From an uncultured Craurococcus sp. (GTDB taxonomy: Bacteria > Pseudomonadota > Alphaproteobacteria > Acetobacterales > Acetobacteraceae), in NCBI GenBank assembly GCA_902805545.1, contig CADCTD010000164.1, positions 1-40,143 on the forward strand: a DNA stretch of 40,143 nt, in the 5' to 3' direction. A model generated the notes under the pieces. The model was given only the letters and a program-made list of their open reading frames with translations. It was not told the DNA's origin and searched no databases. The first letter of the stretch is position 1. Every line of letters begins with the position of its first letter. Both the position numbers and the translations under genes were made by a program. Below, one piece after another: positions 18,581 through 38,865 of this stretch.

Positions 18581-19546
18581 ATGACCGGACGCCGTCATCT
18601 GCTGGCCGTCGCGGCCGGCCTCCTCGCCGCCGCCACGGCCGGCGAGGCCCATGCGCAGCAGCGCCTCGCCAACCTCTACATGTTCATCCCCGCCGGGCCT
18701 GGCGGGGGCTGGGACGGGCTCGGCCGGGCGATCGAGCAGGTCGCGCGGCAGGCGGGACTGGTCGGCAGCTTCCAGTTCGAGAATGTGGGCGGCGCCGGCG
18801 GCTCGGTCGGGCTGCCACGCTTCGTCGGGCAGCGGCGCGGTCGGCCGGATGCGCTGATGGTGGCCGGCTCCATCATGGTCGGCGCGACGCTCACCAACAA
18901 GACGCCCATCGGCATGAAGGACGTGACGCCGATCGCGCGGATGACGGAGGAGGGCGGCGTCATCGTCGTGCCGGCAAGCTCCGACATCAAGGACATCCGG
19001 GGCTTCCTCGACGCGCTGAAGGCCAATCCGGGCGGCACCTCGGTCGCCGGCGGCTCGGCGGGCGGGACGGACCACATCACCCTCGGGCTGATCCTGAAGG
19101 CGCTCGGGCGCTCGGCGAAGGAGGGCTCCTACGTCGCCTTCGCCGGCGGCGGGCCGGCCCAGGCGGCGGTCCTCGGCGCGCAGGTGAAGGCGGGCATCTC
19201 CGGCCTCTCGGAGTTCGCCGAGCAGATCAAGTCCGGCCGCATGCGCGCGCTGGCGACCACGGGCGATGCGCGCGCCGAGCCGGGCCTGCCGACGCTGAAG
19301 GATGCCGGCATCGACGTCGTCATCAGCAATTGGCGCGGCGTCTTCGCCCCGCCCGGCATCCGCCCGGACGCGCGGGAGAAGCTGGTCGCGCTGATGACCG
19401 AGCTGCACGCCCTGCCGGCCTGGAAGGAGATGCTGAAGACGCGCGACTGGGGGGATGCCTTCCTCACCGGCGAGGCTTTCAGCGCCTTCCTCGCCCAGGA
19501 CGTGACGCAGACCGAGGCGGTGCTGAAGGAGATCGGGCTCGCGTGA
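18581..19546 (+). CDS. tctC: Tripartite tricarboxylate transporter substrate-binding protein TctC
   Basis: This periplasmic receptor of a TctCBA importer is 321 residues. The signal peptide ([10 protein letters not shown], alanine-rich core, AHA-Q) is likely cut after residue 25. The mature protein shows the Bug/TctC hallmarks: [18 protein letters not shown] near the N-terminus (ligand carboxylate loop), [14 protein letters not shown], and the [23 protein letters not shown] hinge segment. The ligand in a true TctCBA system is a di- or tricarboxylate such as citrate, but Bug receptors vary widely. GGGAGGA precedes the ATG. The stop overlaps the tctB start (GTGA), as expected for one operon. 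Confidence 0.93.
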
Positions 19547-20055
19547 TCCGGCGCGGCACCGGCCCCGATCTCGCGGTCGGCGGCTTCGTCCTCCTGCTCG
19601 GCCTGCTGGCGCTCTGGCAGACCAGCATCATTCCGGTCTCGCCGATCTATGCCCAGGTCGGGCCGAAGGCGGTGCCCTATGTCGTCAGCGCCGGCCTGCT
19701 CGCGCTCGGCGCGGGGCTGGCGGCGACGGCGCTGCGCGGCGGCTGGTCGCACAGGCTCGAGGAGGTGCGGGAGGCGCCGCCGACCAACTGGCGGGCGCTC
19801 GGCATGCTGCTGGCGGGGCTCGCGGCCAATCTCGTGCTGATCGGGCCGCTCGGCTTCTCCATCGCGGCGAGCGCGCAATTCGTGCTGGTGGCGGCCGCCT
19901 TCGGCTCGCGCCGCCTGCCGCGGGACCTGGTGCTGGCAGTGGTGCTGACGCTGCTCGCCTGGTTCCTTTTCGTCGAACTCCTTGGCGTCAATATCGGCGC
20001 GGGCGTGCTCGAAGGCCTCGTGCTGCGCGCCCTTGGCCGGGACGTCATGGAATGA
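19543..20055 (+). CDS. tctB: Tripartite tricarboxylate transporter small membrane subunit TctB
   Basis: The 170-residue polytopic protein has four hydrophobic segments (about residues 10-30, 45-62, 83-125 and 130-160). That matches the poorly conserved small subunit of TctCBA sodium-coupled transporters. It starts with GTG inside the tctC stop (GTGA) and ends overlapping the tctA start. Sequence identity alone would be weak, but position between tctC and tctA makes the call secure. Confidence 0.9.
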
Positions 20056-21548
20056 TGGACACCATCGCGGGCCTCCAACTCGGCTTCTCCCACGCGCTGA
20101 CGCTCACCAATCTCGGCTGGGCGCTGCTCGGCTGCTTCCTCGGCACGGCGATCGGCGTGCTGCCGGGCATCGGGCCGGCGCTGACCATCGCGCTGTTGCT
20201 GCCGATCACCTTCCAGGTGGAGGCGACAGGCGCCTTCATCCTGTTCTGCGGCGTCTTCTACGGCGCGATGTATGGCGGCTCCACCACCTCAATCCTGCTG
20301 AACACGCCGGGCGAGTCGGGCTCCATCATCACCGCGCTTGAGGGTGCGAAGATGGCGCGGAACGGCCGGGCGGGGCCGGCGCTGGCGACGGCGGCGATCG
20401 GCAGCTTCGTCGCGGGCACCATCGGCACCCTCGGGATCAGCTTCCTCGGGCCGGTCGTCGTCGACCTCGCGCTGAGGCTCGGGCCGGCCGAGTATTTCTC
20501 GCTGATGGTGCTCTGCTTCGTCACCGTCTCGGCCGTGCTCGGCGGCTCGGCGCTGCGGGGGCTGACGAGCCTCTTCTTCGGGCTGCTGCTGGGGCTGGTC
20601 GGCATCGACCTGCAGACCGGCCAGCCGCGCATGACGCTCGGCGTGCCGGAACTGCTGGACGGGGTCAACGTCGTGCTCGTCGCCGTCGCGCTCTTCGCCG
20701 TCGGCGAGACGCTCTACATGGCCTGGCGGCATACGGATGCCAAGGCGCAGGTGCGCAAGGTCGGCAGCATCATGATGTCGCGGAGCGACTGGAAGCGGAG
20801 CATCGGGCCCTGGTTCCGCGGCTCGCTCCTCGGCTTCCCCTTCGGCGTCATGCCGGCGGGCGGGACCGAGATGCCGACCATGCTCAGCTACTATGCCGAA
20901 CGGAAGCTGGTGAAGCCGGAGCATGCAGGCGAGTTCGGCACAACGGGCGCGATCGAGGGCGTGGCCGGGCCGGAGGCGGCGAACAACGCGGCGGCGGCCG
21001 GCATACTCGTGCCGATGCTGACGCTCGGCCTGCCGACCTCGGCGACGGCGGCGATCATGCTGAGCGCCTTCCAGAGCTACGGGATCAATCCGGGGCCCCT
21101 GCTGTTCGAGCAGCAGGGGGCGCTGGTCTGGACGCTGATCGCCAGCCTCTACATCGCCAACATCATGCTGGTGGTGCTGAACCTGCCGCTGGTCGGGCTC
21201 TGGGCACGCATCCTCAAGATTCCGCAGCCCCAACTGTATGCCGGCATCCTGGTCTTCGCCACGATCGGGACCTATGGCATCAGCAACTCGGTCACCGACC
21301 TGGTGCTGCTCTATGTCATCGGCATCATCGGCATGTTCATGCGGCGCTTCGACTTCCCGACCGCGCCGGTGGTCATCGGCATGATCCTCGGGCCGATGGC
21401 GGAGCAGGCGATGCGCCAGGCGCTCACCATCAGCGAGGGGGACTGGACGACCTTCGCCACGCGCCCGGTCTCGCTGGCGATCCTGCTGCTGGCGCTCGCG
21501 GCGCTGGTGGGGCCGCGGCTCTACGGGCGCTTCGCGGGCGCCAGGTAG
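20052..21548 (+). CDS. tctA: Tripartite tricarboxylate transporter large membrane subunit TctA
   Basis: The 498-residue permease subunit has the two conserved glycine-rich signature loops. The first is [17 protein letters not shown] (about residues 35-51) followed by [18 protein letters not shown]; the second is [23 protein letters not shown] in the middle, with [24 protein letters not shown]-type residues after it. About 11 to 12 membrane helices can be traced. It carries out sodium-coupled uptake of the ligand delivered by TctC. The ATG overlaps the tctB stop by four bases. The gene ends just before a strong hairpin at 21556-21585. Confidence 0.94.
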
Positions 21549-21555
21549 GGGCGAT

Positions 21556-21585
21556 GGCAGGCGGCATGCTACTCCGCCGCCTGCC
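21556..21585. terminator. Convergent terminator between tctA and the luciferase-like gene
   Basis: GGCAGGCGGC (21556-21565) pairs perfectly with GCCGCCTGCC (21576-21585) around a ten-base loop. It starts 8 bases after the tctA stop and lies over the end of the convergent gene (its stop at 21569). It could stop transcripts in both directions. T-tracts are absent, as often in very GC-rich genomes. Confidence 0.6.
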
Positions 21586-22927
21586 CCATCCGCCAGTCGC
21601 CCCGCACCGAGCGCGGCAGGCCGAGATGGTCGCGCAGCGTCGGGCCCGTATAGTCCCGCCGGTACAGGCCGCGGCGCTGCAACTCCGGGACGACGAATTG
21701 AACGAACTCGGCATAGGTTCCGGGGACATGGGTTGCGGAGATGACGAAGCCGTCGCAGGCGCCGCCCTCGAACCAGGCCTCGAGCTTGTCGGCCACCTCC
21801 TTCGGGCCGCCGACCATGTCCATCCGCGGCCGGCCGCGGCCGCTGCCGGTGATGAAGTCGCGCACCGTCGGGTTGCGCTTGCCCGTCGCCTCCACCACCC
21901 GGTCGCGGATCGCCTGCAGGCCCTGGATGCCGGCCATCTCCTCGTCGGTGAAGGGCTCGTCCATGCCCTTGCTGGCGAAGTCGAAATTGAGCGCCTCGGA
22001 GAGCAGCGAGAGCGCGTCGATCTCGAGGGGAAGCTTGTCGATCAGCGCCGCGCGGTCCTCGGCCTCGGCCCGGGTCGCGGCGCAGATCGGGTTGCAGAGC
22101 GTCGCCACCTTCACCGAGGCGGGGTCGCGCCCGGTGGCGGCGACCATCGCCTTGAAGGCATCGTAGTCGCGCTTGCCGGAGGCGATGTCGTGATAGGCGA
22201 CGAAGACCAGCTCCGCCCAGCGCGCCGAGAAGCGCTTGCCCCGGCCGCTGCTGCCGGCCTGGATCAGCACCGGCCGCCCCTGCGGCGAGCGCGGCACGGT
22301 GAAGGGGCCGCGGGAGCGGAGGAACTGGCCCCGGTAGTCCAGCCGATGCACCTTGCCGCCGTCGCCGAAGCGGCCGCCTGCCTTGTCGAGGATCAGCGCA
22401 TCGTCCTCCCAGGCATCCCAGTGCCCGAGCACGACCTCGACGAATTCGTCGGCGCGGTCGTAGCGGGCGTCATGCGCCATCATCTCGGCATGGCCCATAT
22501 TGGCCGCCTCGCCGTCGTTCAGCGAGGTGACGACGTTCCAGGCGGCGCGGCCGTCGCTCATCAGGTCGAGCGTCTGGAAGGCGCGGGCGACGTGATAGGG
22601 CTCGTAATAGGTGGTCGAGGCGGTGGAGCCGAGGCCGAGGCGCGCCGTCGCCGCCGCCATCATGGTCAGCACCACCACCGGGTCGAGCTTCACGCAGCGG
22701 ATGCCGTGCTCGATCGTATGGTGGTGGTCGGAGCCGAAGCGGTCGGGCATGGAAAGCCGGTCGTCGAAGAAGGCGAGGTCGAATTTGCCCGCCTCCAGGA
22801 TGCGGCCGATCTCCTGGTAGTAGTCGGCGCGGAGGAAATCCGTCCGGCTCTCCGGATGGCGCCAGGACGAGGCGAGGTTCGTGCAGTTCTGCGCCTGCAG
22901 GAAGCCGACGAGATGCATCTGGCGCAT
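21569..22927 (-). CDS. FMN-dependent luciferase-family monooxygenase (NtaA/SnaA/SoxA type)
   Basis: The 452-residue product is a two-component flavin monooxygenase. The family's N-terminal block is MHLVGFLQAQNCTNLASSWRHP. FDLAFFDDRL, the ARLGLGSTASTTYYEPYHVAR strand-loop, and SDGRAAWNVVTSLNDGEAANMG (FMN site) follow, with GRPVLIQAGSSGRG and VKVATLCNPICAAT further on. Relatives oxidise nitrilotriacetate, pristinamycin precursors, alkanesulfonates or dibenzothiophene sulfone with FMNH2 from a separate reductase, which is not visible here. Substrate is therefore unknown. AAGGAGGG lies 8 bases before the ATG at 22927. It diverges from the isomerase gene, with a long inverted repeat between. Confidence 0.88.
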   Translation of the reverse strand: MRQMHLVGFLQAQNCTNLASSWRHPESRTDFLRADYYQEIGRILEAGKFDLAFFDDRLSMPDRFGSDHHHTIEHGIRCVKLDPVVVLTMMAAATARLGLGSTASTTYYEPYHVARAFQTLDLMSDGRAAWNVVTSLNDGEAANMGHAEMMAHDARYDRADEFVEVVLGHWDAWEDDALILDKAGGRFGDGGKVHRLDYRGQFLRSRGPFTVPRSPQGRPVLIQAGSSGRGKRFSARWAELVFVAYHDIASGKRDYDAFKAMVAATGRDPASVKVATLCNPICAATRAEAEDRAALIDKLPLEIDALSLLSEALNFDFASKGMDEPFTDEEMAGIQGLQAIRDRVVEATGKRNPTVRDFITGSGRGRPRMDMVGGPKEVADKLEAWFEGGACDGFVISATHVPGTYAEFVQFVVPELQRRGLYRRDYTGPTLRDHLGLPRSVRGDWRMGQAAE

Positions 22928-31609: not shown

Positions 31610-32581
31610 CTAGTCTATGGAAGCGCCGGAGGCCTTCACCACCGGCGCCCAGGCGGCGACCTGCTGGCGCATGAAGTCGTCATAGGCCGCGGCGGGCAGC
31701 GGCGCCGGCTCCGCGCCGAATTCGCGGATGCGCGCGGCGATGCCGGGATCGGCCAGCGCCTCCAGGATCTCGCCGCCGAGGCGCTCCCGGATCGGCTGCG
31801 GCACGCCGGCCGGTGCGGCGATGCCGTACCAGGAGGCGACGTCGAACTCGGCGATGCCGCTCTCCTGCAGGGTCGGCAGTTCCGGCATGGTGCCCGCGCG
31901 CGCGGCGGTGGAGACGGCGAGCGCACGGAGCAGCCCGCCGAGCACCTGCTGCCGGCTGGCCGGCGCGTTGTCGATGGCGAAGAGCACCTCGCCGTTCATC
32001 ACCGCCGCCATGCTCGGCGCCGTGCCGCGATAGGGGACATGGATGGTCTCGACCCCCGTCCGCAGCCCGAGCAGCACGCCCGAGAGATGCGAGGAGGTGC
32101 CGGTGCCGGCGGAGGCGAAGGTCGCCGCCTGCGGGTTGGCGCGCATGAAGGCGACGAGCCCCGCGACATCGCGGTGCGGGCTGTCGCCCTTGACGATCAG
32201 CACGTTCGGCATGCGGGCGAGGCGGCAGACGCCCGGCAGGTCGCGCAGCGGGTCGAAGGAGAGCCGCTTGTACAGCGTCGGCCCGATGCCGTGCGAGGCG
32301 ATGTGGTTGACGAAGAAGCTGTAGCCGTCCGGCGCGCTGCGGGCCGCAGCCTCGGCGCCCAGCATGCCGCCGGCGCCGGGCCGCGGGTCGATCACCAGCG
32401 GCTGGCCGAGCCGCTCGCGCAGGCGGTTCTCCATCAGCCGGAGGAAGATGTCGGAGACGCCGCCCGCCGCCGCGCCGATGATGAAGCGCAGCGGCCGGTC
32501 CGGCCAGGTGCCGGTTCCCTGCGCCCGCGCCAGGGCCGGCGCGGCGAGCAGGCCGAGCAGCGCCCGCTTTCCGAGATGCAT
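31610..32581 (-). CDS. Orphan TctC/Bug-family substrate-binding protein
   Basis: The 323-residue periplasmic receptor has signal peptide MHLGKRALLGLLAAPALARA-Q (cleavage after residue 20). Bug-family hallmarks follow: FIIGAAAGGVSDIFLRLME, NHIASHGIGP-type ligand loop, GAGGMLGAEAAARSAPDGYS, and SWYGIAAPAGVPQPIRERL. GGGAGGGA lies 6 bases before the ATG at 32581. There is no tctA or tctB beside it, so it must use a shared permease such as TctBA at 19.5-21.5 kb, or act as a sensor. The ligand is unknown. It sits 1.7 kb from the nicX-like operon, which may or may not be relevant. Confidence 0.9.
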   Translation of the reverse strand: MHLGKRALLGLLAAPALARAQGTGTWPDRPLRFIIGAAAGGVSDIFLRLMENRLRERLGQPLVIDPRPGAGGMLGAEAAARSAPDGYSFFVNHIASHGIGPTLYKRLSFDPLRDLPGVCRLARMPNVLIVKGDSPHRDVAGLVAFMRANPQAATFASAGTGTSSHLSGVLLGLRTGVETIHVPYRGTAPSMAAVMNGEVLFAIDNAPASRQQVLGGLLRALAVSTAARAGTMPELPTLQESGIAEFDVASWYGIAAPAGVPQPIRERLGGEILEALADPGIAARIREFGAEPAPLPAAAYDDFMRQQVAAWAPVVKASGASID

Positions 32582-32669: not shown

Positions 32670-33713
32670 ATGACCCGCCCCGCCCCCCTCCGCCGCCGCG
32701 CCTGGCTGGCCCTCCTGCTGCTCGCCGGCTGCACCGGCGGCGGGCCGCAGCAGCTCGACACCGACCAGGTGGGCTATGCGCAGGCGCTCGGCGACGGGCT
32801 GAAGCGGCAGATGCTGCTGAACATGGTGCGGCTGCGCTATGCGGATGTGCCGACCTTCCTCTCGGTCAGCCAGGTGATCACCGGCTACACGCTGCAGACG
32901 ACGGGGCAGGTCGGCCTGAACTCCTATCCCAACGCCAATCCGGGGAATTACGCCACCATCTCCGGCACCATGCAGTACACGACGCGGCCGACCTTCACCT
33001 TCACGCCGATGACCGGCGAGCAATTCGCCCAGTCCTACCTGCGGCCGCTGGCAGCCGCCGAGCTGCTGTCGCTGGCGCAGAGCGGCGCGCCGGTCGACCT
33101 GCTCTTCCGCCTCGGCGTGCAGTCGGTGAACGGCATGCCGAACGGGGCGACGCGGGGCGGCGAGGCGCAGGAAGCCTCGGGCGGCTTCCTCGCCCTGGTC
33201 GGGGCGCTGCGCCAGGCCCAGGCGGCGGGCAGGGTCGGGCTGCGCTTCGAGCGGCATGGCAGCGCCGGCCGCGTCTTCCTGCTGCTGGAGGGCGATGGGC
33301 CGGCGGTGCGCCAGGCCCGCAGCCTGCTCGGCCTCGGCCCGAGCGACGGGGAGGCGGAGGTGACCTATGGCCAGACGCGCGGCGGGCGGGGCCAGGTGGC
33401 GATCCTGACGCGCTCCGTGCTGCAGGTGCTCTACGAGCTCGGCGCGCAGATCGAGGTGGCGGCGGCGGATGTCGCCCGGGGCGACACGCGGGCGACGGAG
33501 GACAGCTTCGGCGAGCGGCTGATCCGCATCCGCCAGGGCCCGCGCGCCCCGGCCGACGCCTATGCCGCGGTGCCCTACCGCGAGCGCTGGTTCTGGATCG
33601 AGCAGAACGACTACCGCTCCAAGGCGAGCTTCACCTTCGCCTACATCCTGCAGATCCTGGCCGAGAGCGGGCGGGGCCAGCCGACGCCGATGGTCACCAT
33701 CCCCGCCCAGTGA
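32670..33713 (+). CDS. Lipoprotein of unknown function (347 aa)
   Basis: The N-terminus has three arginines, a leucine-rich core and lipobox LAGC with Cys21, so an outer- or inner-membrane lipoprotein is predicted. A repeated type of segment follows: LLNMVRLRYADVPTFLSVSQVITGY at about residues 51-75 and a Tyr/Thr/Asn-rich stretch (TGQVGLNSYPNANPGNY). The C-terminus is acidic/aromatic (YRERWFWIEQNDYRSKASFTFAYILQ). This matches a widespread uncharacterised family that I cannot name with certainty. The ATG at 32670 is preferred since it puts the lipobox at residue 21. No Shine-Dalgarno sequence is clear, and ATG 32649 is the alternative. It ends two bases before the convergent marR stop. Confidence 0.75.
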   Translation: MTRPAPLRRRAWLALLLLAGCTGGGPQQLDTDQVGYAQALGDGLKRQMLLNMVRLRYADVPTFLSVSQVITGYTLQTTGQVGLNSYPNANPGNYATISGTMQYTTRPTFTFTPMTGEQFAQSYLRPLAAAELLSLAQSGAPVDLLFRLGVQSVNGMPNGATRGGEAQEASGGFLALVGALRQAQAAGRVGLRFERHGSAGRVFLLLEGDGPAVRQARSLLGLGPSDGEAEVTYGQTRGGRGQVAILTRSVLQVLYELGAQIEVAAADVARGDTRATEDSFGERLIRIRQGPRAPADAYAAVPYRERWFWIEQNDYRSKASFTFAYILQILAESGRGQPTPMVTIPAQ

Positions 33714-33715
33714 GG

Positions 33716-34180
33716 TCAGCCGCGCCGCGGCCTGTCGTGCCGGGCGAGGATGGCGCGGAGCAGGTTCTTGATCGCCTCCGCCTCGGCGGGCGGGTGGCGG
33801 GCGAGCAGCTCCGCCTCATGCGCCTTGGCGGCCAGCGCCAGGTCCTCCGCCGTCGCCCGCCCGGCCGCGGTGAGGCAGACCCGCACCACGCGCCGGTCCC
33901 GCTGGTCCGGGCTGCGGGCGACCAGGCCGGCGCGGACCATGCGGTCGAGCAGCTTGGTCATGGTCGGCTGCTGCAGCAGGCAGGTCTCGGCAAGGCCGGT
34001 GACCGTCTCGCCCTCGCTGCCCATGAGGCTGCTCAGCACGCGCCACACCGCGACGGAAATGCCACGGCGGCGCAATTGCTCGTGGAATTCGCTGGAAACC
34101 TGGTGTGCGGCCCGCGCGAGCAGATACACCAGGTAGTCATCGATGAAGCGAACCCCAGAGGGCTGGGAGGGGATTTCCAT
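33716..34180 (-). CDS. MarR-family transcriptional regulator
   Basis: The 154-residue product has the winged-helix MarR fold. N-terminal helices (FIDDYLVYLLARAAHQVSSEFHEQL) are followed by the recognition region (GISVAVWRVLSSLMG, LAETCLLQQPTMTKLLDRMVRAGLV) and the wing SPDQRDRRVVRVCLTAAG with the typical DxRxxxVxLT motif. It diverges from the nicX-like operon. In Pseudomonas putida the nicotinate regulator NicR is also a MarR protein controlling nic genes, so a repressor role here is a reasonable inference. The start at 34180 gives a typical length, while the in-frame ATG at 34279 would add 33 residues of poor quality. A candidate operator lies at 34255-34277. Confidence 0.88.
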   Translation of the reverse strand: MEIPSQPSGVRFIDDYLVYLLARAAHQVSSEFHEQLRRRGISVAVWRVLSSLMGSEGETVTGLAETCLLQQPTMTKLLDRMVRAGLVARSPDQRDRRVVRVCLTAAGRATAEDLALAAKAHEAELLARHPPAEAEAIKNLLRAILARHDRPRRG

Positions 34181-34254
34181 ATCGGTATCGCGGCGCCATT
34201 CCAGGGCTTTCGATACGATAGCAAATCCTGTGAGGAAAATCTTCGAAATAATAC

Positions 34255-34277
34255 GACTTAGCGACGAGTGCCAAGTC
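34255..34277. promoter_or_regulatory. Candidate MarR operator between divergent genes
   Basis: GACTTAGC (34255-34262) and GCCAAGTC (34270-34277) form an 8-bp inverted repeat with one mismatch and a 7-base spacer. It lies 41 bases upstream of the nicX-like start. On the minus strand it overlaps a TTGGCA ... TATTAT promoter-like pair (34274-34248, spacing 15) for marR, so autoregulation is plausible. The whole 34181-34318 region is clearly AT-richer than its surroundings. Confidence 0.4.
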
Positions 34278-34318
34278 ATTCAAATTGCGTGACAGAGTCC
34301 GTAAGGTTTAGGAGGATC

Positions 34319-35371
34319 ATGCTCGCCGATCGGATCGAAGCACCCTGGATCGAGGCCTTCGAGGCCGTGCTCCGCCTCTGCGGCGCCGGGCCGGGCCTGC
34401 CCCTCTGCCTGCTCGGGGAGAGCCAGTCCCGCGCCCTCAACCTCGACCTCGCCGAGCTCGCCGCGCTCCGCCTCGGCTGCCGGCCCTTCCGCTGCATCCT
34501 GCCGACGCAGCCCTCCACCGCCCCGGTGCCGGTGCGCTCGACCGGCGCCTCCCGCGCCATCGGCGGGCACCCCGGGGTGATGGCGGCGCTGGCCGCGGCG
34601 CCGCTGATCCTCGACCTGACGGTGGAGGGGCTGCTGCACGCGCCGGAGCTTCCCGCCATCCTCAAGGCGGGCAGCCGGGTGCTGATGGTCTCGAACGAGC
34701 ATCCGGAGGTGCTCGCCCGCCTCGTCCCCCGCCCCGAGGACGAGGCGCCGGTGAAGGCCGCGGTGAAGCGCGCCCGCGCCGCCCGGCACATGCATGTCAC
34801 CTCCGCCGCCGGCACCGACCTGCGGATCGTGATGGAGGGGGCCGCGGTCGCCGGCGTCTGGGGCTGGACCGACCGGCCAGGCACCGTCGCGCACTGGCCG
34901 GGCGGCATCCTCGTGGCCTTCCCGCGCGCCGGCAGCGTCGAAGGAACGCTGGTGCTGGATGCGGGCGACGTGAACCTGACCTTCAAGCGCTACCTCGAGC
35001 GCCCCATCCACCTCACCCTTGCGGACGACCACATCACCGCCATCGAAGGCGAGGGGGGCGATGCCGAGATGATGCGCCGCTACCTCGCCGCCTTCGCGGA
35101 GCATGAGGGGGGCGGCCGCGCCGCCTATGCCGTCTCCCATGTCGGCTGGGGCCTCAACCCGCGCGCCCGCTACGAGGCGCTGGCCTTCTACGACCGGCGC
35201 GACACCAACGGCACGGAGCTGCGCGCCTTCGCCGGCAATTTCCTGTTCTCGACCGGCGCCAACGAATTCGCCGGCCGCTTCACCGAGGGGCATTTCGACA
35301 TCCCCGTCCGCAACTGCACCATCGCCCTCGACGGAGAGAGGGTGGTGGAGGAAGGAAGGCTGCTGCCATGA
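34319..35371 (+). CDS. 2,5-dihydroxypyridine 5,6-dioxygenase-like protein (NicX family)
   Basis: The 350-residue product closely resembles NicX, the Fe(II) extradiol dioxygenase that opens 2,5-dihydroxypyridine to N-formylmaleamate in nicotinate catabolism. The fold is also related to M29 aminopeptidases. Shared elements are AHWPGGILVAFPRAGSVEG, GTLVLDAGDVNL, YAVSHVGWGLNPRA, AFAGNFLFSTGANEF and HFDIPVRNCTI. His274 (in SHVGWG), His325 and Asp327 (in GHFDIP) occupy the metal-ligand positions known for the Pseudomonas enzyme. An excellent TAGGAGG lies just before the ATG. It heads an operon of four genes with overlaps of 4 bases or gaps of 4 bases. The exact substrate may differ from 2,5-dihydroxypyridine. 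Confidence 0.85.
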   Translation: MLADRIEAPWIEAFEAVLRLCGAGPGLPLCLLGESQSRALNLDLAELAALRLGCRPFRCILPTQPSTAPVPVRSTGASRAIGGHPGVMAALAAAPLILDLTVEGLLHAPELPAILKAGSRVLMVSNEHPEVLARLVPRPEDEAPVKAAVKRARAARHMHVTSAAGTDLRIVMEGAAVAGVWGWTDRPGTVAHWPGGILVAFPRAGSVEGTLVLDAGDVNLTFKRYLERPIHLTLADDHITAIEGEGGDAEMMRRYLAAFAEHEGGGRAAYAVSHVGWGLNPRARYEALAFYDRRDTNGTELRAFAGNFLFSTGANEFAGRFTEGHFDIPVRNCTIALDGERVVEEGRLLP

Positions 35372-36150
35372 CCGAGGCCCCGATCCCTGCCTGGCAGGAG
35401 CATGGCGAGGGCCGCCGCGCCATCGTGCTGCTGCACGGGCTCGGCGGGAATGCCGGGCTCTGGGGACCGACGCTGCCCGTGCTCGCCGACTACCGCGTCC
35501 TGGCCTGGGACATGCCCGGCTACGGCGCCTCGGCACCGGTGGAGCCGGGCTTCCCGGCGCTGGCCGCCGCGCTCGCCCGCATGATGGATGCGGCCGAGCT
35601 GGAGCGCGCCGACCTCGTCGGCCACTCGATCGGCGGGATGGTGGCGCTGGAATTCGCGCTCACCTGGCCCGAGCGGGTGCGCAGCCTCACCCTCTATGCC
35701 AGCCCGCCGGCCTTCGGCGGGCGCGACCCGGCCTTCCGCGAGCGCTTCCTCGCCGACCGGCTGGCGCCGCTCGAGGCCGGGCACAGCCTCGGCGACATCG
35801 CCGGGCGGGTGGTCGGCCCGCTGCTCGGCGATGCGCCGGACCCGCGAGCGGCGCCGGCCGCCATCGCCAGCATGGCCGCCGTGCCGGAGGCGGGCTACCG
35901 CGCGGCGCTCGCCACCCTCGTCACCTTCGACCGCCGCGCCGATCTGGAGAGCCTCGACATGCCCTGCCTCGTCCTGGTCGGGGAGGCGGATCCGCTCGCC
36001 CCCTTCCACGTCATGCACATGACGGCGAGCGCCATCCCCGGCGCGCGGATGGCGATCATCGCCGATGCCGGGCACCTCGCCCATCTCGAGCGGCCGGCCG
36101 ACTTCAACGCCATGCTCACCAGCTTCCTCGACCGCGTCGGGGAGGGCTGA
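35368..36150 (+). CDS. Alpha/beta hydrolase, NicD-like
   Basis: The 260-residue product has the catalytic triad Ser87 (GHSIGG nucleophile elbow), Asp208 (VGEADPLAP) and His236 (AGHLAH). The oxyanion-hole motif LLHGLGGNAGLWG is present near residues 23-35. It resembles 3-oxoadipate enol-lactonase and other small hydrolases by sequence. Position matters: it overlaps the nicX-like stop by four bases (ATGA). In the nicotinate pathway the NicX product N-formylmaleamate is hydrolysed by NicD, an alpha/beta hydrolase, to maleamate and formate. So N-formylmaleamate deformylase or a close analogue is the likeliest role, from context rather than from specific residues. Confidence 0.82.
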   Translation: MTEAPIPAWQEHGEGRRAIVLLHGLGGNAGLWGPTLPVLADYRVLAWDMPGYGASAPVEPGFPALAAALARMMDAAELERADLVGHSIGGMVALEFALTWPERVRSLTLYASPPAFGGRDPAFRERFLADRLAPLEAGHSLGDIAGRVVGPLLGDAPDPRAAPAAIASMAAVPEAGYRAALATLVTFDRRADLESLDMPCLVLVGEADPLAPFHVMHMTASAIPGARMAIIADAGHLAHLERPADFNAMLTSFLDRVGEG

Positions 36151-36154
36151 GGCC

Positions 36155-37396
36155 ATGGCCGCCCCGATCTTCGACCCCGCCGCCTTCCGCCTGACGCCGG
36201 AGGAGGCCGCGCTCACCGCCATGGCGCGCGACTTCGGCGAGGGCGTGCTCGCCCCGCGCGCCGCCCGCTGGGACCGCGAGGCGCGCTTCCCGACCGACAA
36301 CTACCGGGACATGCGGGCCAATGGCCTGCTCGGCCTCTGCATCCCGCGCGACGAGGGCGGGATGGGCGCCGGCTTCCGCGCCTACTGCCTCGCCGCGGCC
36401 GAACTCGGCCGGTTCTGCGGCGCGACCGCGCTCACCTGGAACATGCATGTCTGCTCGACGCTCTGGAGCGGTCCGCTGAGCGACGACCTCGAGCTGGAGC
36501 CGGTCCTGCGCGAGGCCCATCGCGCCGCCCGCCGGCTGCACTACCGCCGCATCCTCGAGGAGGGCGCGGTCTACTCGCAGCCTTTCTCCGAGGGTGGCGC
36601 GGCATCGGCCGGCACCGCGGCCTTCGGCACCGTGGCGCGGCCCGTCCCGGGCGGCTGGCGGATCACCGGGCGGAAGATCTTCGCCAGCCTCGCCGGCCAT
36701 GCCGACTACTACGGCATCCTCTGCACCGAGCAGCGCGAGGGCGAGGCGCCGCTCTCCCGCCGCGACACGCTCTACCTCGCCGTGCCGCGCGAGGCGCCCG
36801 GCGTCTCGGTGATCGGCGAGTGGGACCCGCTCGGCATGCGCGGCACCGTCTCGCGCACGCTGGTCTTCGGCGACGTGCTGGTCGGGCCGGAGGCGGCGCT
36901 GATGCCGCCCGGCCTCTACATGCAGGCGGCCAGCCGCTGGCCGCACATGTTCCTGACGCTGAGCCCGACCTATATGGGCATCGCCCAGGCCGCCTACGAC
37001 TTCACCATCGCCTATCTGCGCGGCGAGGTGCCGGGGATGCCGCCGGTGAAGCGGCGGATGTACGCTACCAAACAGATCGCCGTCGCCGAGATGCGTATCA
37101 CGCTCGAGCAGACCAAGGCGATCTGGTTCCAGGCGATCACCGAGGCTGGCCCCGACCCTTCGCCGGAACAGGTGCAACGCGCCTGGGCCGCGCAGTACAG
37201 CGTGATGGAGAATGCCGCCGCCGTTGCCGCCAAGGCTGTCCGCACCTGCGGCGGCCAGGCCATGCTGAAGTCGCTCCCGCTCGAACGCCTCTACCGCGAC
37301 GCGCGTTGCGGGTCCCTCATGCTGCCCTGGACAGCGGAACTCTGCGTCGACCGGCTCGGCCGGGACTGCCTGTACGAGAAAGGCGAGACTGATTGA
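36155..37396 (+). CDS. Acyl-CoA dehydrogenase-family flavoprotein with atypical catalytic loop
   Basis: The 413-residue product has the acyl-CoA dehydrogenase layout. An N-terminal helical domain (LTPEEAALTAMARDFGE) comes first. The middle beta domain follows (WRITGRKIFASLAGHADYYGIL, WDPLGMRGTVSRTLVFGDVLVG), then the C-terminal helices (RTCGGQAMLKSLPLERLYRDARCGSLM). The usual catalytic segment YEGT is replaced by LPWTAEL with Glu395 near the expected position, as in a subset of distant relatives. It may thus act as a dehydrogenase on an unusual substrate or as a flavin monooxygenase-type relative. ATG at 36155 follows the hydrolase stop by 4 bases. The stop overlaps the ligase start. Confidence 0.82.
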   Translation: MAAPIFDPAAFRLTPEEAALTAMARDFGEGVLAPRAARWDREARFPTDNYRDMRANGLLGLCIPRDEGGMGAGFRAYCLAAAELGRFCGATALTWNMHVCSTLWSGPLSDDLELEPVLREAHRAARRLHYRRILEEGAVYSQPFSEGGAASAGTAAFGTVARPVPGGWRITGRKIFASLAGHADYYGILCTEQREGEAPLSRRDTLYLAVPREAPGVSVIGEWDPLGMRGTVSRTLVFGDVLVGPEAALMPPGLYMQAASRWPHMFLTLSPTYMGIAQAAYDFTIAYLRGEVPGMPPVKRRMYATKQIAVAEMRITLEQTKAIWFQAITEAGPDPSPEQVQRAWAAQYSVMENAAAVAAKAVRTCGGQAMLKSLPLERLYRDARCGSLMLPWTAELCVDRLGRDCLYEKGETD

Positions 37397-38865
37397 TCTG
37401 CCGTATCATCCTGCGTCATGCCGAACACAGGCCCCATGCCGTTGCGCTGACCTTTGGTGAGGAGCGGATCACCTATGCCGGGCTCGCCCGCCGCATCCGC
37501 GCCGCGGCCGCCATGCTGGAGGAGCAGGGCTACGGCCATGGCGACTGCATCGCCTATCTCGGCCAGAACCATCCGAGCCAGCTCGTCCTGGCGCTCGCCT
37601 GCGCCGGGCTCGGCTGCCTGTTCCTGCCGCTGAACTGGCGCCTGGCGCCGCCCGAGCTGCGCCATATCCTCGACGATTCCGGCGCCGCCGCGCTCTTCGC
37701 CCTGCCGGAGACGGCGGCCCTCGCCCGCCGCGCCGCGCCGAAGGGGTGCCCCGTCCTCGACGCCGCCGGCGCCTGGCCCGAGGCGGCGGGCCCCGCCGGC
37801 ATGGGCATCACGCTGCTGACCGAGATGGAGGACCCGATGCTGCTGGCCTATACCAGCGGCACGACCGGCCATCCGAAGGGCGTCGCGCTCGACCATGGCG
37901 CAGTGATGACCAACGCCATCAACAGCCAGCACATGCATGCGCTGACCGAGGCGGACCGCGTGCTGACGGTACTGCCGATGTTCCATCTCGGCGGCCTCAA
38001 CATCCAGACCCTGCCGGCGCTGCTCTTCGGCGCCGAGGTGGTGCTGCTGCCGCGCTTCGAGCCGGAGGCCTTCTTCGAGGCCTGCGCCCGGCTGCGGCCG
38101 ACGCTGAGCCTGGTGGTCCCGGCGGTGATGCAGGCGCTGGTCGAGCACCCGCTGTGGAAGACGGCCGACCTCTCCAGCCTGCGCGCCGTCGGCGCCGGCT
38201 CCTCCGAGGTGCCGCTGCCGCTGATCGAGGCCTTTCATGCCCGCGGCATCCCCGTGCAGCAGGTCTATGGCGCGACGGAGACCGGGCCGATCGCCATCTA
38301 CCAGACGCGGGCGGAGGCGCTCACACATCCCGGTTCCATCGGCTTCCAGGCGCTGCACGGCGTCGCGCGCATCGTCGATGCGGAGGGCGAGCCGCTGCCG
38401 CCCGGCGACGTCGGCGAGATCGAGGTGCGCGGCGCGCATGTCGCCCGCGGCTACTGGAATGCGCCGGAGGAGACGGAGGAGTCCTGGCGCGAGGGCTGGT
38501 TCGCCACCGGCGACCTCGGCTGGCGCGATGCGGAGGGGCGCTTCTGGTTCGCTGACCGGCGCAAGCACCTCATCATCTCGGGCGGCGAGAACATCTATCC
38601 GGCGGAGGTGGAGCGCGTGCTCCGCACCGCGCCGGGCGTGCTGGAATGCGCCGTCTGCGGCCGGCCCGACCCGCGCTGGGGCGAGGTGCCGGTCGCCGTC
38701 GTGGTGCCCGGCCCCGGCTTCGACGCGGCGCGGATGCTGGCGCATTGCGAGGACCGGCTCGCCCGCTTCAAGCACCCGCGTGCGGTGGTGACGGTGGAGG
38801 CGCTGCCGCGCACCGCGCTCGGCAAGATCCAGCTGGAGGCGTTGCGACAGCTGGCACGGGGCTAG
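37393..38865 (+). CDS. Acyl-CoA ligase (AMP-dependent synthetase, class I adenylate-forming)
   Basis: The 490-residue product activates a carboxylic acid to its CoA thioester through an acyl-adenylate. The P-loop is YTSGTTGHPKG (residues 153-163). VYGATETGP (A5), WFATGDLGWRD with the hinge FADRRKHLIISGGENIYPAEVE (A8), and the C-terminal Lys in RTALGKIQLE (A10) follow. It resembles medium-chain or aromatic acid CoA ligases. The start is TTG at 37393, overlapping the acyl-CoA dehydrogenase stop (TTGA), with AAAGGCGAG upstream. It is the last gene of the nicX-like operon and ends tail to tail with the sugar transferase in a shared CTAG (38862-38865). Confidence 0.87.
   Translation: MICRIILRHAEHRPHAVALTFGEERITYAGLARRIRAAAAMLEEQGYGHGDCIAYLGQNHPSQLVLALACAGLGCLFLPLNWRLAPPELRHILDDSGAAALFALPETAALARRAAPKGCPVLDAAGAWPEAAGPAGMGITLLTEMEDPMLLAYTSGTTGHPKGVALDHGAVMTNAINSQHMHALTEADRVLTVLPMFHLGGLNIQTLPALLFGAEVVLLPRFEPEAFFEACARLRPTLSLVVPAVMQALVEHPLWKTADLSSLRAVGAGSSEVPLPLIEAFHARGIPVQQVYGATETGPIAIYQTRAEALTHPGSIGFQALHGVARIVDAEGEPLPPGDVGEIEVRGAHVARGYWNAPEETEESWREGWFATGDLGWRDAEGRFWFADRRKHLIISGGENIYPAEVERVLRTAPGVLECAVCGRPDPRWGEVPVAVVVPGPGFDAARMLAHCEDRLARFKHPRAVVTVEALPRTALGKIQLEALRQLARG

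Follow-up and report, generated by a model that had tools for sequence, protein, structure and literature searches.

The four genes discussed here lie on a 40,143-nucleotide stretch of DNA (the window), contig 164 (CADCTD010000164.1) of the 4.53 Mb genome of an uncultured Craurococcus sp. (GCA_902805545.1, Acetobacteraceae). They encode a NicX-like Fe(II) ring-cleavage dioxygenase, an alpha/beta-hydrolase, a flavoprotein with the acyl-CoA dehydrogenase (ACAD) fold and an AMP-forming acyl-CoA ligase, and a MarR-family gene diverges from them. This module is a real breakdown operon, kept in order beyond chance and common to many soil and marine bacteria. The dioxygenase keeps the iron site of NicX in a changed pocket, the ACAD-fold protein lacks the known catalytic residues of dehydrogenases, and the module is associated with a family of anthraniloyl-CoA metabolism, NF006101. 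Our leading, though tentative, reading is that the operon opens a hydroxylated nitrogen-bearing aromatic ring and feeds the product into anthranilate (anthraniloyl-CoA) metabolism. Within it, an indole-type substrate is the favoured guess, a rather doubtful one, with anthranilate itself close behind.

Layout and conservation of the operon

The operon and the divergent regulator gene are arranged as follows (window positions, lengths in amino acids, aa).

33716-34180, minus strand: MarR-family protein, 154 aa from the ATG at 34180 (PF12802/PF01047 over the cut-off)
34181-34318: divergent intergenic region between the MarR gene and the NicX-like gene
34310-34315: Shine-Dalgarno sequence AGGAGG, preceding the ATG of the NicX-like gene
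34319-35371, plus strand: NicX-like Fe(II) ring-cleavage dioxygenase, 350 aa, ATG start
35368-36150, plus strand: alpha/beta-hydrolase, 260 aa, ATGA overlap with the NicX-like gene (Abhydrolase_1 over the cut-off)
36155-37396, plus strand: ACAD-fold flavoprotein, 413 aa, 4-base gap after the hydrolase gene
37393-38865, plus strand: AMP-forming acyl-CoA ligase, 490 aa, TTG start overlapping the preceding TGA (AMP-binding over the cut-off)

The divergent MarR gene, the coordinates, the overlaps, the 4-base gap and the CoA ligase had been described in an earlier reading made from the sequence alone, and this description was right. An alternative upstream ATG at 34279 is possible for the MarR gene, giving 187 aa. 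The family matches of the ligase are uninformative for substrate assignment.

Genes in the fetched loci were called with a simple codon-based gene caller, with approximate starts, and the names of neighbouring genes without a family match come from inspecting protein starts by eye. The dioxygenase has a match in 25 of 147 relatives, the window's own genome included. The search for the gene order in other genomes, which the sequence-only reading had proposed, found it conserved: all five genes (MarR, NicX, hydrolase, ACAD, ligase) follow in order in 16 of the 26 loci fetched first (L030-L045), amid varied flanks and with one extra gene inside the order in L041 and L044. Over these 16 loci, identity to the window ranges over 71-92% for the ACAD-fold protein, 64-92% for the dioxygenase, 48-90% for the ligase and 41-91% for the hydrolase. 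A scan of a public genome collection returned at least 594 pattern matches, at least 556 of them encoding relatives of the dioxygenase. The best 80 of these relatives were retained as named-genome loci; the ACAD-fold gene is present in 65, the ligase in 62, the hydrolase in 54 and MarR in 48. Altogether, 143 loci were surveyed, those cut by contig ends being counted as they are. Loci with a dioxygenase of at least 55% identity were taken as module loci (120 of the 143, holding 112 distinct dioxygenases), and within 9.5 kb these show the ACAD-fold gene in 102 cases, the ligase in 97, the hydrolase in 93, MarR in 86 and a flavin reductase in 31. The MarR orthologue diverges from the NicX-like gene in many loci. 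The nearest named kin of the window is Belnapia (L056, L057), with 92% identity in the dioxygenase.

The dioxygenase and its pocket

The dioxygenase is closest to NicX of Pseudomonas putida (7cn3), with an E-value of 2.7e-61 over nearly its whole length. In Foldseek, its model (pLDDT 88.4) also finds 7cn3 first, at a template modelling (TM) score of 0.88-0.89, as compared to 0.54-0.58 for M29 peptidases. Neither Pfam (up to E 1) nor NCBIfam (up to E 0.1) gave a match for the protein, and a search of the genome with the M29 family PF02073 matched another gene only (G000:C40). Peptidase family M29 was thus ruled out, in agreement with the sequence-only reading, which had called the protein NicX-like.

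According to the available part of the NicX study (PMC7910607), the iron of NicX is bound by His265, Ser302, His318 and Asp320 and the substrate by Glu177 and His189; Glu177 holds N1 and O1 of dihydroxypyridine, and its Ala variant retains 2.7% activity. The same source calls NicX the subtype-defining member of its dioxygenase kind. His274, His325 and Asp327 of the window protein, noted as kept in the sequence-only reading, indeed align with His265, His318 and Asp320, and Ser311 with Ser302. An alignment of 121 module-clade, 10 intermediate and 12 NicX-clade sequences shows Arg293 and the iron ligands conserved throughout, the sole exception being Ser302 in one module sequence (equivalents of His265, Ser302, His318 and Asp320 in 121, 120, 121 and 121 of 121). 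The equivalent of His189 is kept in 120 of the 121. At the Glu177 position, every one of the 121 module sequences has V, I, G or N (V180 in the window), and 11 of the 12 NicX-clade sequences have Glu. The pocket comparison that had been proposed from the sequence thus found the metal site of NicX kept and its substrate-holding Glu replaced.

Further positions separate the two clades. Trp181 is present in 121/121 module sequences, with Tyr in 12/12 of the NicX clade. At 103-104, where all 12 NicX-clade sequences have a gap, the module sequences carry an inserted Glu-Gly pair (Glu in 116 and Gly in all of the 121). Position 73 is Arg in 121/121 module sequences (R73-S-T-G in the window) and Asp in 11 of the 12; this loop is aligned differently in two alignments and modelled poorly at 74-76, and its location near the pocket is unsure. 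In an unrooted tree, a branch supported at 100/99 separates the eight NicX-clade rows from the rest, the window included. Only this unrooted split was used, as the genome's own M29 peptidase gave far too long a branch as an outgroup.

With the iron site kept, Glu177 lost and a separate clade formed, NicX-type chemistry is likely for the module dioxygenase, and the substrate of NicX is not. Judged from these residues, the module clade probably performs another ring cleavage, with the same iron chemistry in a different pocket.

The ACAD-fold protein

The product of the third gene had been labelled an acyl-CoA dehydrogenase. The fold and domains of this label stand, as PF02771, PF02770 and PF08028 (Acyl-CoA_dh_N/M/2) are all over the cut-off; the catalytic residues do not. 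The YEGT of seven canonical ACADs from these loci is MLPWTAE in this protein, its helix-G segment reads WPHMF, and QPFSEGG takes the place of TEPxxGSD. Glu is thereby absent from both positions (C-terminal and helix G) that we take to be catalytic in acyl-CoA dehydrogenases. Six of the seven canonical proteins are glutaryl-CoA-dehydrogenase-like (by eye); an eighth comparison protein, L176_1, has no YEGT or C-terminal Glu, but a Glu in helix G. The best NCBIfam matches of the window protein are FadE16-like and acryloyl-CoA-reductase models, all below the cut-off.

Flavin reductases recur near some of the relatives. One is found in the fetched neighbourhood of 21 of the 112 distinct loci, adjacent in several and at a distance of about 7 kb in the Bradyrhizobium-type loci L167 and L169-L171, and seven further loci have a reductase-MarR fusion. 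One reductase and one fusion were scanned, and both best match the HPAH reductase model NF045919, below the cut-off; the window MarR protein weakly matches the C-terminal part of the same model (E 4e-4). The HPAH C1 reductase has this reductase-MarR architecture, according to the accessible part of PMC10816480. Group D hydroxylases carry an ACAD-type domain, and 2-aminobenzoate 3-monooxygenase is listed among them (PMC6165268, accessible part). Moreover, a class A FAD monooxygenase stands by NicX and the hydrolase in L048 and L199-L203, in place of the ACAD-fold gene, so that this slot looks like that of a hydroxylase.

Given the missing catalytic glutamates and the HPAH-type flavin reductases near some relatives, the ACAD-fold protein is probably a two-component flavin hydroxylase rather than an ordinary dehydrogenase, although the fold comparison by itself does not indicate a hydroxylase. 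As for the processing through CoA thioesters that had been proposed from the sequence, thioester formation is possible and an ordinary dehydrogenase step is unlikely.

Association with anthraniloyl-CoA metabolism

NF006101 bears the NCBI name bifunctional salicylyl-CoA 5-hydroxylase/oxidoreductase, and the family presumably holds the 2-aminobenzoyl-CoA monooxygenase/reductase type. The ANTHRANILATE link, with NF006101 within 9.5 kb of the module, is present in 11 of the 143 loci (L046, L128, L167, L169, L170, L177, L187, L191, L195, L196, L197), several times at 5-9 kb or at the locus edge. The match is over the cut-off by model in L195, L046 and L128. In L128, the gene directly follows the ligase gene; the contig of L046 stops shortly after NicX, so that its hydrolase and ACAD genes are out of view.

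The association extends to whole genomes. A phylum sample of 398 genomes was used, the module being counted at a dioxygenase match of at least 466 bits and NF006101 as a full-length member. NF006101 is present in 19 of 19 module genomes and in 52 of 379 others (p 7e-16, kinship not corrected). Six of these 19 have intermediate identities or scores (G183, G333, G336, G469, G525, G527), G183 having NicX and the hydrolase only, and six of the 19 belong to one genus. Among the 147 relatives, NF006101 occurs in 16 of 19 module genomes and in 21 of 128 others (p 8e-9, likewise uncorrected); the two same-genus genomes without the module, G003 and G007 (75% complete), are also without NF006101. Fifty named genomes were chosen from the 80 loci, and 36 of them have NF006101 at E <= 1e-200, with 31 over the cut-off. 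The 36 comprise 28 of 33 genomes with the hydrolase near, 3 of 12 with the ACAD gene and no hydrolase, and 5 of 5 with neither near. The no-hydrolase group consists mostly of gammaproteobacterial metagenome-assembled genomes, and kinship may explain its lower rate.

In the window's own genome, NF006101 lies on another contig (G000:C49:66599-68839; 1115.7 bits, over the cut-off). Its cluster there also holds a benzoate-CoA-ligase-like gene, which falls just short of the cut-off, and SDR-, MarR-, ECH- and RidA-like genes named by eye.

Tryptophan dioxygenase, arylformamidase and kynureninase, all over the cut-off, adjoin the module in L176, and tryptophan-dioxygenase-like genes below the cut-off are near it in L044 and L102. 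Despite L176, kynurenine supply was rejected as a general role: the relatives show no co-occurrence of kynureninase with the module (3/19 vs 27/128, p 0.76), and the genome search found none in the window's genome.

Importers and neighbouring genes

An importer component is encoded near the regulator gene.

31610-32581, minus strand: TctC-type periplasmic receptor (PF03401)

Importers near the module are of TctC type in 27, TRAP type in 13 and TauA-like type in 13 of the 112 distinct loci (TRAP and TauA-like by eye). By association, the window receptor is a possible uptake protein for the module substrate. Between it and the MarR gene lies the gene of a 347-aa protein (32670-33713) that starts like a lipoprotein and matches no Pfam model up to E 1e-5; the five further same-genus module loci, L030-L034, have its orthologue in the same position. 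Elsewhere in the window, a second TctC-type receptor (PF03401) is followed by two genes resembling the membrane parts of tripartite tricarboxylate transporters (18581-21548, by eye), and a luciferase-like flavin monooxygenase (PF00296) is encoded at 21569-22927.

In the divergent intergenic region, CTTTCGATACGATA at 34207-34220 is a candidate MarR operator. In an alignment of six same-genus sequences, L030, L031 and L032 match it exactly, L033 differs by a single change, and L034 does not conserve it. No inverted repeat that could serve as MarR operator was found in this region at the repeat-search settings used.

Other versions of the neighbourhood were also seen. In Tardiphaga and its kin (L101, L103, L111, L113, L115, L119, L120, L168), the dioxygenase gene stands with a divergent flavin-reductase-MarR fusion, and a span of about 7.5 kb showed no ACAD, hydrolase or ligase gene of the module, contig ends cutting several of the loci. 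L089, L099, L118 and L135 represent a hydrolase-free version of the module. In all four, a maleylacetoacetate-isomerase-like gene lies directly upstream of NicX (over the cut-off by model in L118), and genes like those for electron-transfer flavoprotein (ETF), ETF-QO and ferredoxin lie further upstream; a fumarase-type gene is found downstream in L118 and L135 (Pfam match in L118). NF006101 gave no match at E <= 1e-200 in these four genomes. In L178 and L179 (G333, G469), an intermediate-clade NicX is accompanied by an ACAD-fold gene, a hydrolase-domain protein, a glutamine-synthetase-like gene and a flavin reductase, without a ligase. L178 also has a gentisate/5-aminosalicylate-dioxygenase-like gene (below the cut-off) and an FAH-family gene upstream of NicX on the same strand. 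A gene pair resembling 3-hydroxyacyl-CoA dehydrogenase and octopine-type dehydrogenase adjoins the module in several lineages (L045, L086, L102, L133, L167, L169-L171; protein starts).

Proposed pathway and alternative explanations

Under the preferred reading, the substrate would first be hydroxylated by the ACAD-fold protein, a reductase supplying the reduced flavin. The NicX-like Fe(II) enzyme would then cleave the C(OH)-CH bond adjacent to the nitrogen of the ring, like NicX, to give a carboxylate and an N-formyl group. NicX leaves such an N-formyl group, and NicD removes it; the alpha/beta-hydrolase would likewise release formate. The ligase would finally form a CoA thioester for the 5-hydroxylase/reductase (NF006101) on the other contig. 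With indole or an indole acid as substrate, the group D-like hydroxylase would form indoxyl, NicX-type opening of the fused five-membered nitrogen ring would give N-formylanthranilate, and anthranilate and anthraniloyl-CoA would follow. Indoxyl has the same C(OH)-CH bond as the NicX substrate, so that its cleavage would give N-formylanthranilate, and the loss of Glu177 would make room for its benzo ring. A route leading through the hydrolase to anthranilate would also explain why the hydrolase and NF006101 go together.

A number of observations weigh against this proposal. The reactions, the order of the steps and the substrate are all deduced from the genes. The ACAD-fold protein is nearer to dehydrogenases than to group D hydroxylases in sequence and fold, and its nearest solved structures are dehydrogenases (Foldseek; model pLDDT 74.8). 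The window's operon has no flavin reductase, two PF01613 proteins being encoded elsewhere in the genome, and the ETF-like genes upstream in L089, L099, L118 and L135 would suit a dehydrogenase. The hydrolase resembles NicD at the superfamily level: among the matches listed, a NicD-like protein and the module hydrolases gave partial matches of about 21-34% only, and no close relation to NicD appears. Its best NCBIfam models are PcaDC and PcaD, both below the cut-off, and it is proposed to be a deformylase, a thioesterase or a C-C hydrolase. The own anthranilate cluster has a separate ligase, which would make that of the module redundant. Furthermore, the co-occurrence tests ignore kinship, and NF006101 is above background in NicX-only genomes of the phylum sample too (8/15, as compared to 44/364 with neither). 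Nine of the 12 no-hydrolase genomes are without it, so the module can stand without NF006101, and three module genomes (G042, G053, G069) have no match to it at E <= 1e-250. Anthranilate dioxygenase was considered as an outlet in these three and rejected, with no AntA match at E <= 1e-80. Kynureninase, as given above, is not enriched with the module. The anionic-solute importers and the invariant Arg73 suggest an anionic substrate, unlike free indole; the indole route leaves both, as well as the second ligase, unexplained. An indole acid as the substrate would ease the importer and Arg73 objections.

These importers and Arg73 would be accounted for if anthranilate itself were the substrate, an alternative that we consider doubtful. 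The ligase would form anthraniloyl-CoA, the ACAD-fold protein would add a 5-hydroxyl group, the NicX-like enzyme would cleave beside it, and the hydrolase would act as a thioesterase or deformylase towards a maleylacetate-type product after loss of ammonia. The kynurenine genes adjoining the module in L176, NF006101 and RidA-like genes in some neighbourhoods, the maleylacetoacetate-isomerase-like and fumarase-type genes of the hydrolase-free loci, and the gentisate/5-aminosalicylate-dioxygenase-like gene (below the cut-off) of L178 all fit such a route, as does the place of 2-aminobenzoate 3-monooxygenase among the group D enzymes. However, the step with which NF006101 starts would then be present twice, although the module and NF006101 are found together rather than as substitutes for one another; nor does this alternative give a reason for the hydrolase tracking NF006101. 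It is unlikely that the module acts on a different aromatic or heteroaromatic acid and that the anthraniloyl-CoA link merely reflects versatile aromatic degraders. The NicX-only and no-hydrolase genomes mentioned above would agree with this, but 19/19 exceeds 8/15 (p 0.001), and NF006101 is physically linked in several lineages.

The sequence-only reading had proposed that a substituted or side-chain-bearing hydroxypyridine is cleaved and processed through CoA thioesters; the ligase and a genuine acyl-CoA dehydrogenase would then oxidise the side chain in thioester form. The NicX kinship, the ACAD fold and ligase in one operon, and the ETF-like genes in four loci are in line with this. Nevertheless, the loss of Glu177 in 121/121 sequences and the genomic association with anthraniloyl-CoA metabolism, which it leaves unexplained, speak against it, as do the absence of the known catalytic Glu and the recurrence of flavin reductases as extra partners, and we now regard it as quite improbable. 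A variant of the ordinary nicotinate (nic) operon is highly improbable: NicX kinship is its sole support, the pocket is changed, and the window lies across the 100/99 branch from the NicX clade. True NicX-clade loci do show nicC/E/F-like neighbours; beside the window's operon there are none, as had been stated from the sequence (protein starts in both cases, with NicE and NicF searched for only beside the operon).

Comparison with known systems

NicX of P. putida KT2440 (7cn3, 7cup) shares with the module dioxygenase the fold, the four iron ligands and the equivalents of Arg293, His105 and His189. The module enzyme differs by V, I, G or N for Glu177, by Arg73-Ser-Thr-Gly, by the Glu-Gly insertion and by Trp181. 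NicC is the hydroxylase of the NicX pathway, and NicC/NicX/NicD and the module have in common the logic of a hydroxylase, a NicX and an alpha/beta-hydrolase. In contrast to the nic system, the module has an ACAD-fold protein instead of NicC, plus a CoA ligase, and no NicE- or NicF-like neighbour. Among the results listed, no description of the four-gene arrangement, which had earlier been suggested to be possibly undescribed, was found in the accessible parts of the open-access literature on dihydroxypyridine, anthranilate-CoA and indole pathways, most subscription journals being outside this search.

The group D hydroxylases (HPAH C1/C2, HsaA/HsaB) share the ACAD fold, and HPAH-type reductases and the reductase-MarR fusion occur near some relatives of the module. 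Unlike in these systems, the sequence of the module protein is nearer to short-chain acyl-CoA dehydrogenases, and the window's operon has no reductase. The 2-aminobenzoyl-CoA monooxygenase/reductase pathway of Azoarcus evansii and Arthrobacter Rue61a shares the CoA ligase and flavin oxygenase chemistry; its signature enzyme is on another contig here, and the available parts of PMC4539516 and PMC3534580 describe no NicX-type ring cleavage.

Under the preferred explanation, the iif/ind indole cluster of Acinetobacter and Cupriavidus would share a two-component flavin oxygenase and anthranilate as the end product. The iif cluster uses a short-chain dehydrogenase and a cofactor-independent oxygenase, and the accessible part of PMC6221969 names no NicX-like enzyme in it. 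The same text maintains that indole-degradation clusters other than iif exist, and it cites Sakamoto for a route of indole breakdown through indoxyl, isatin and N-formylanthranilate, proposed in 1953. If the product of the module dioxygenase is N-formylanthranilate, the module would give testable genes for that step of indole breakdown.

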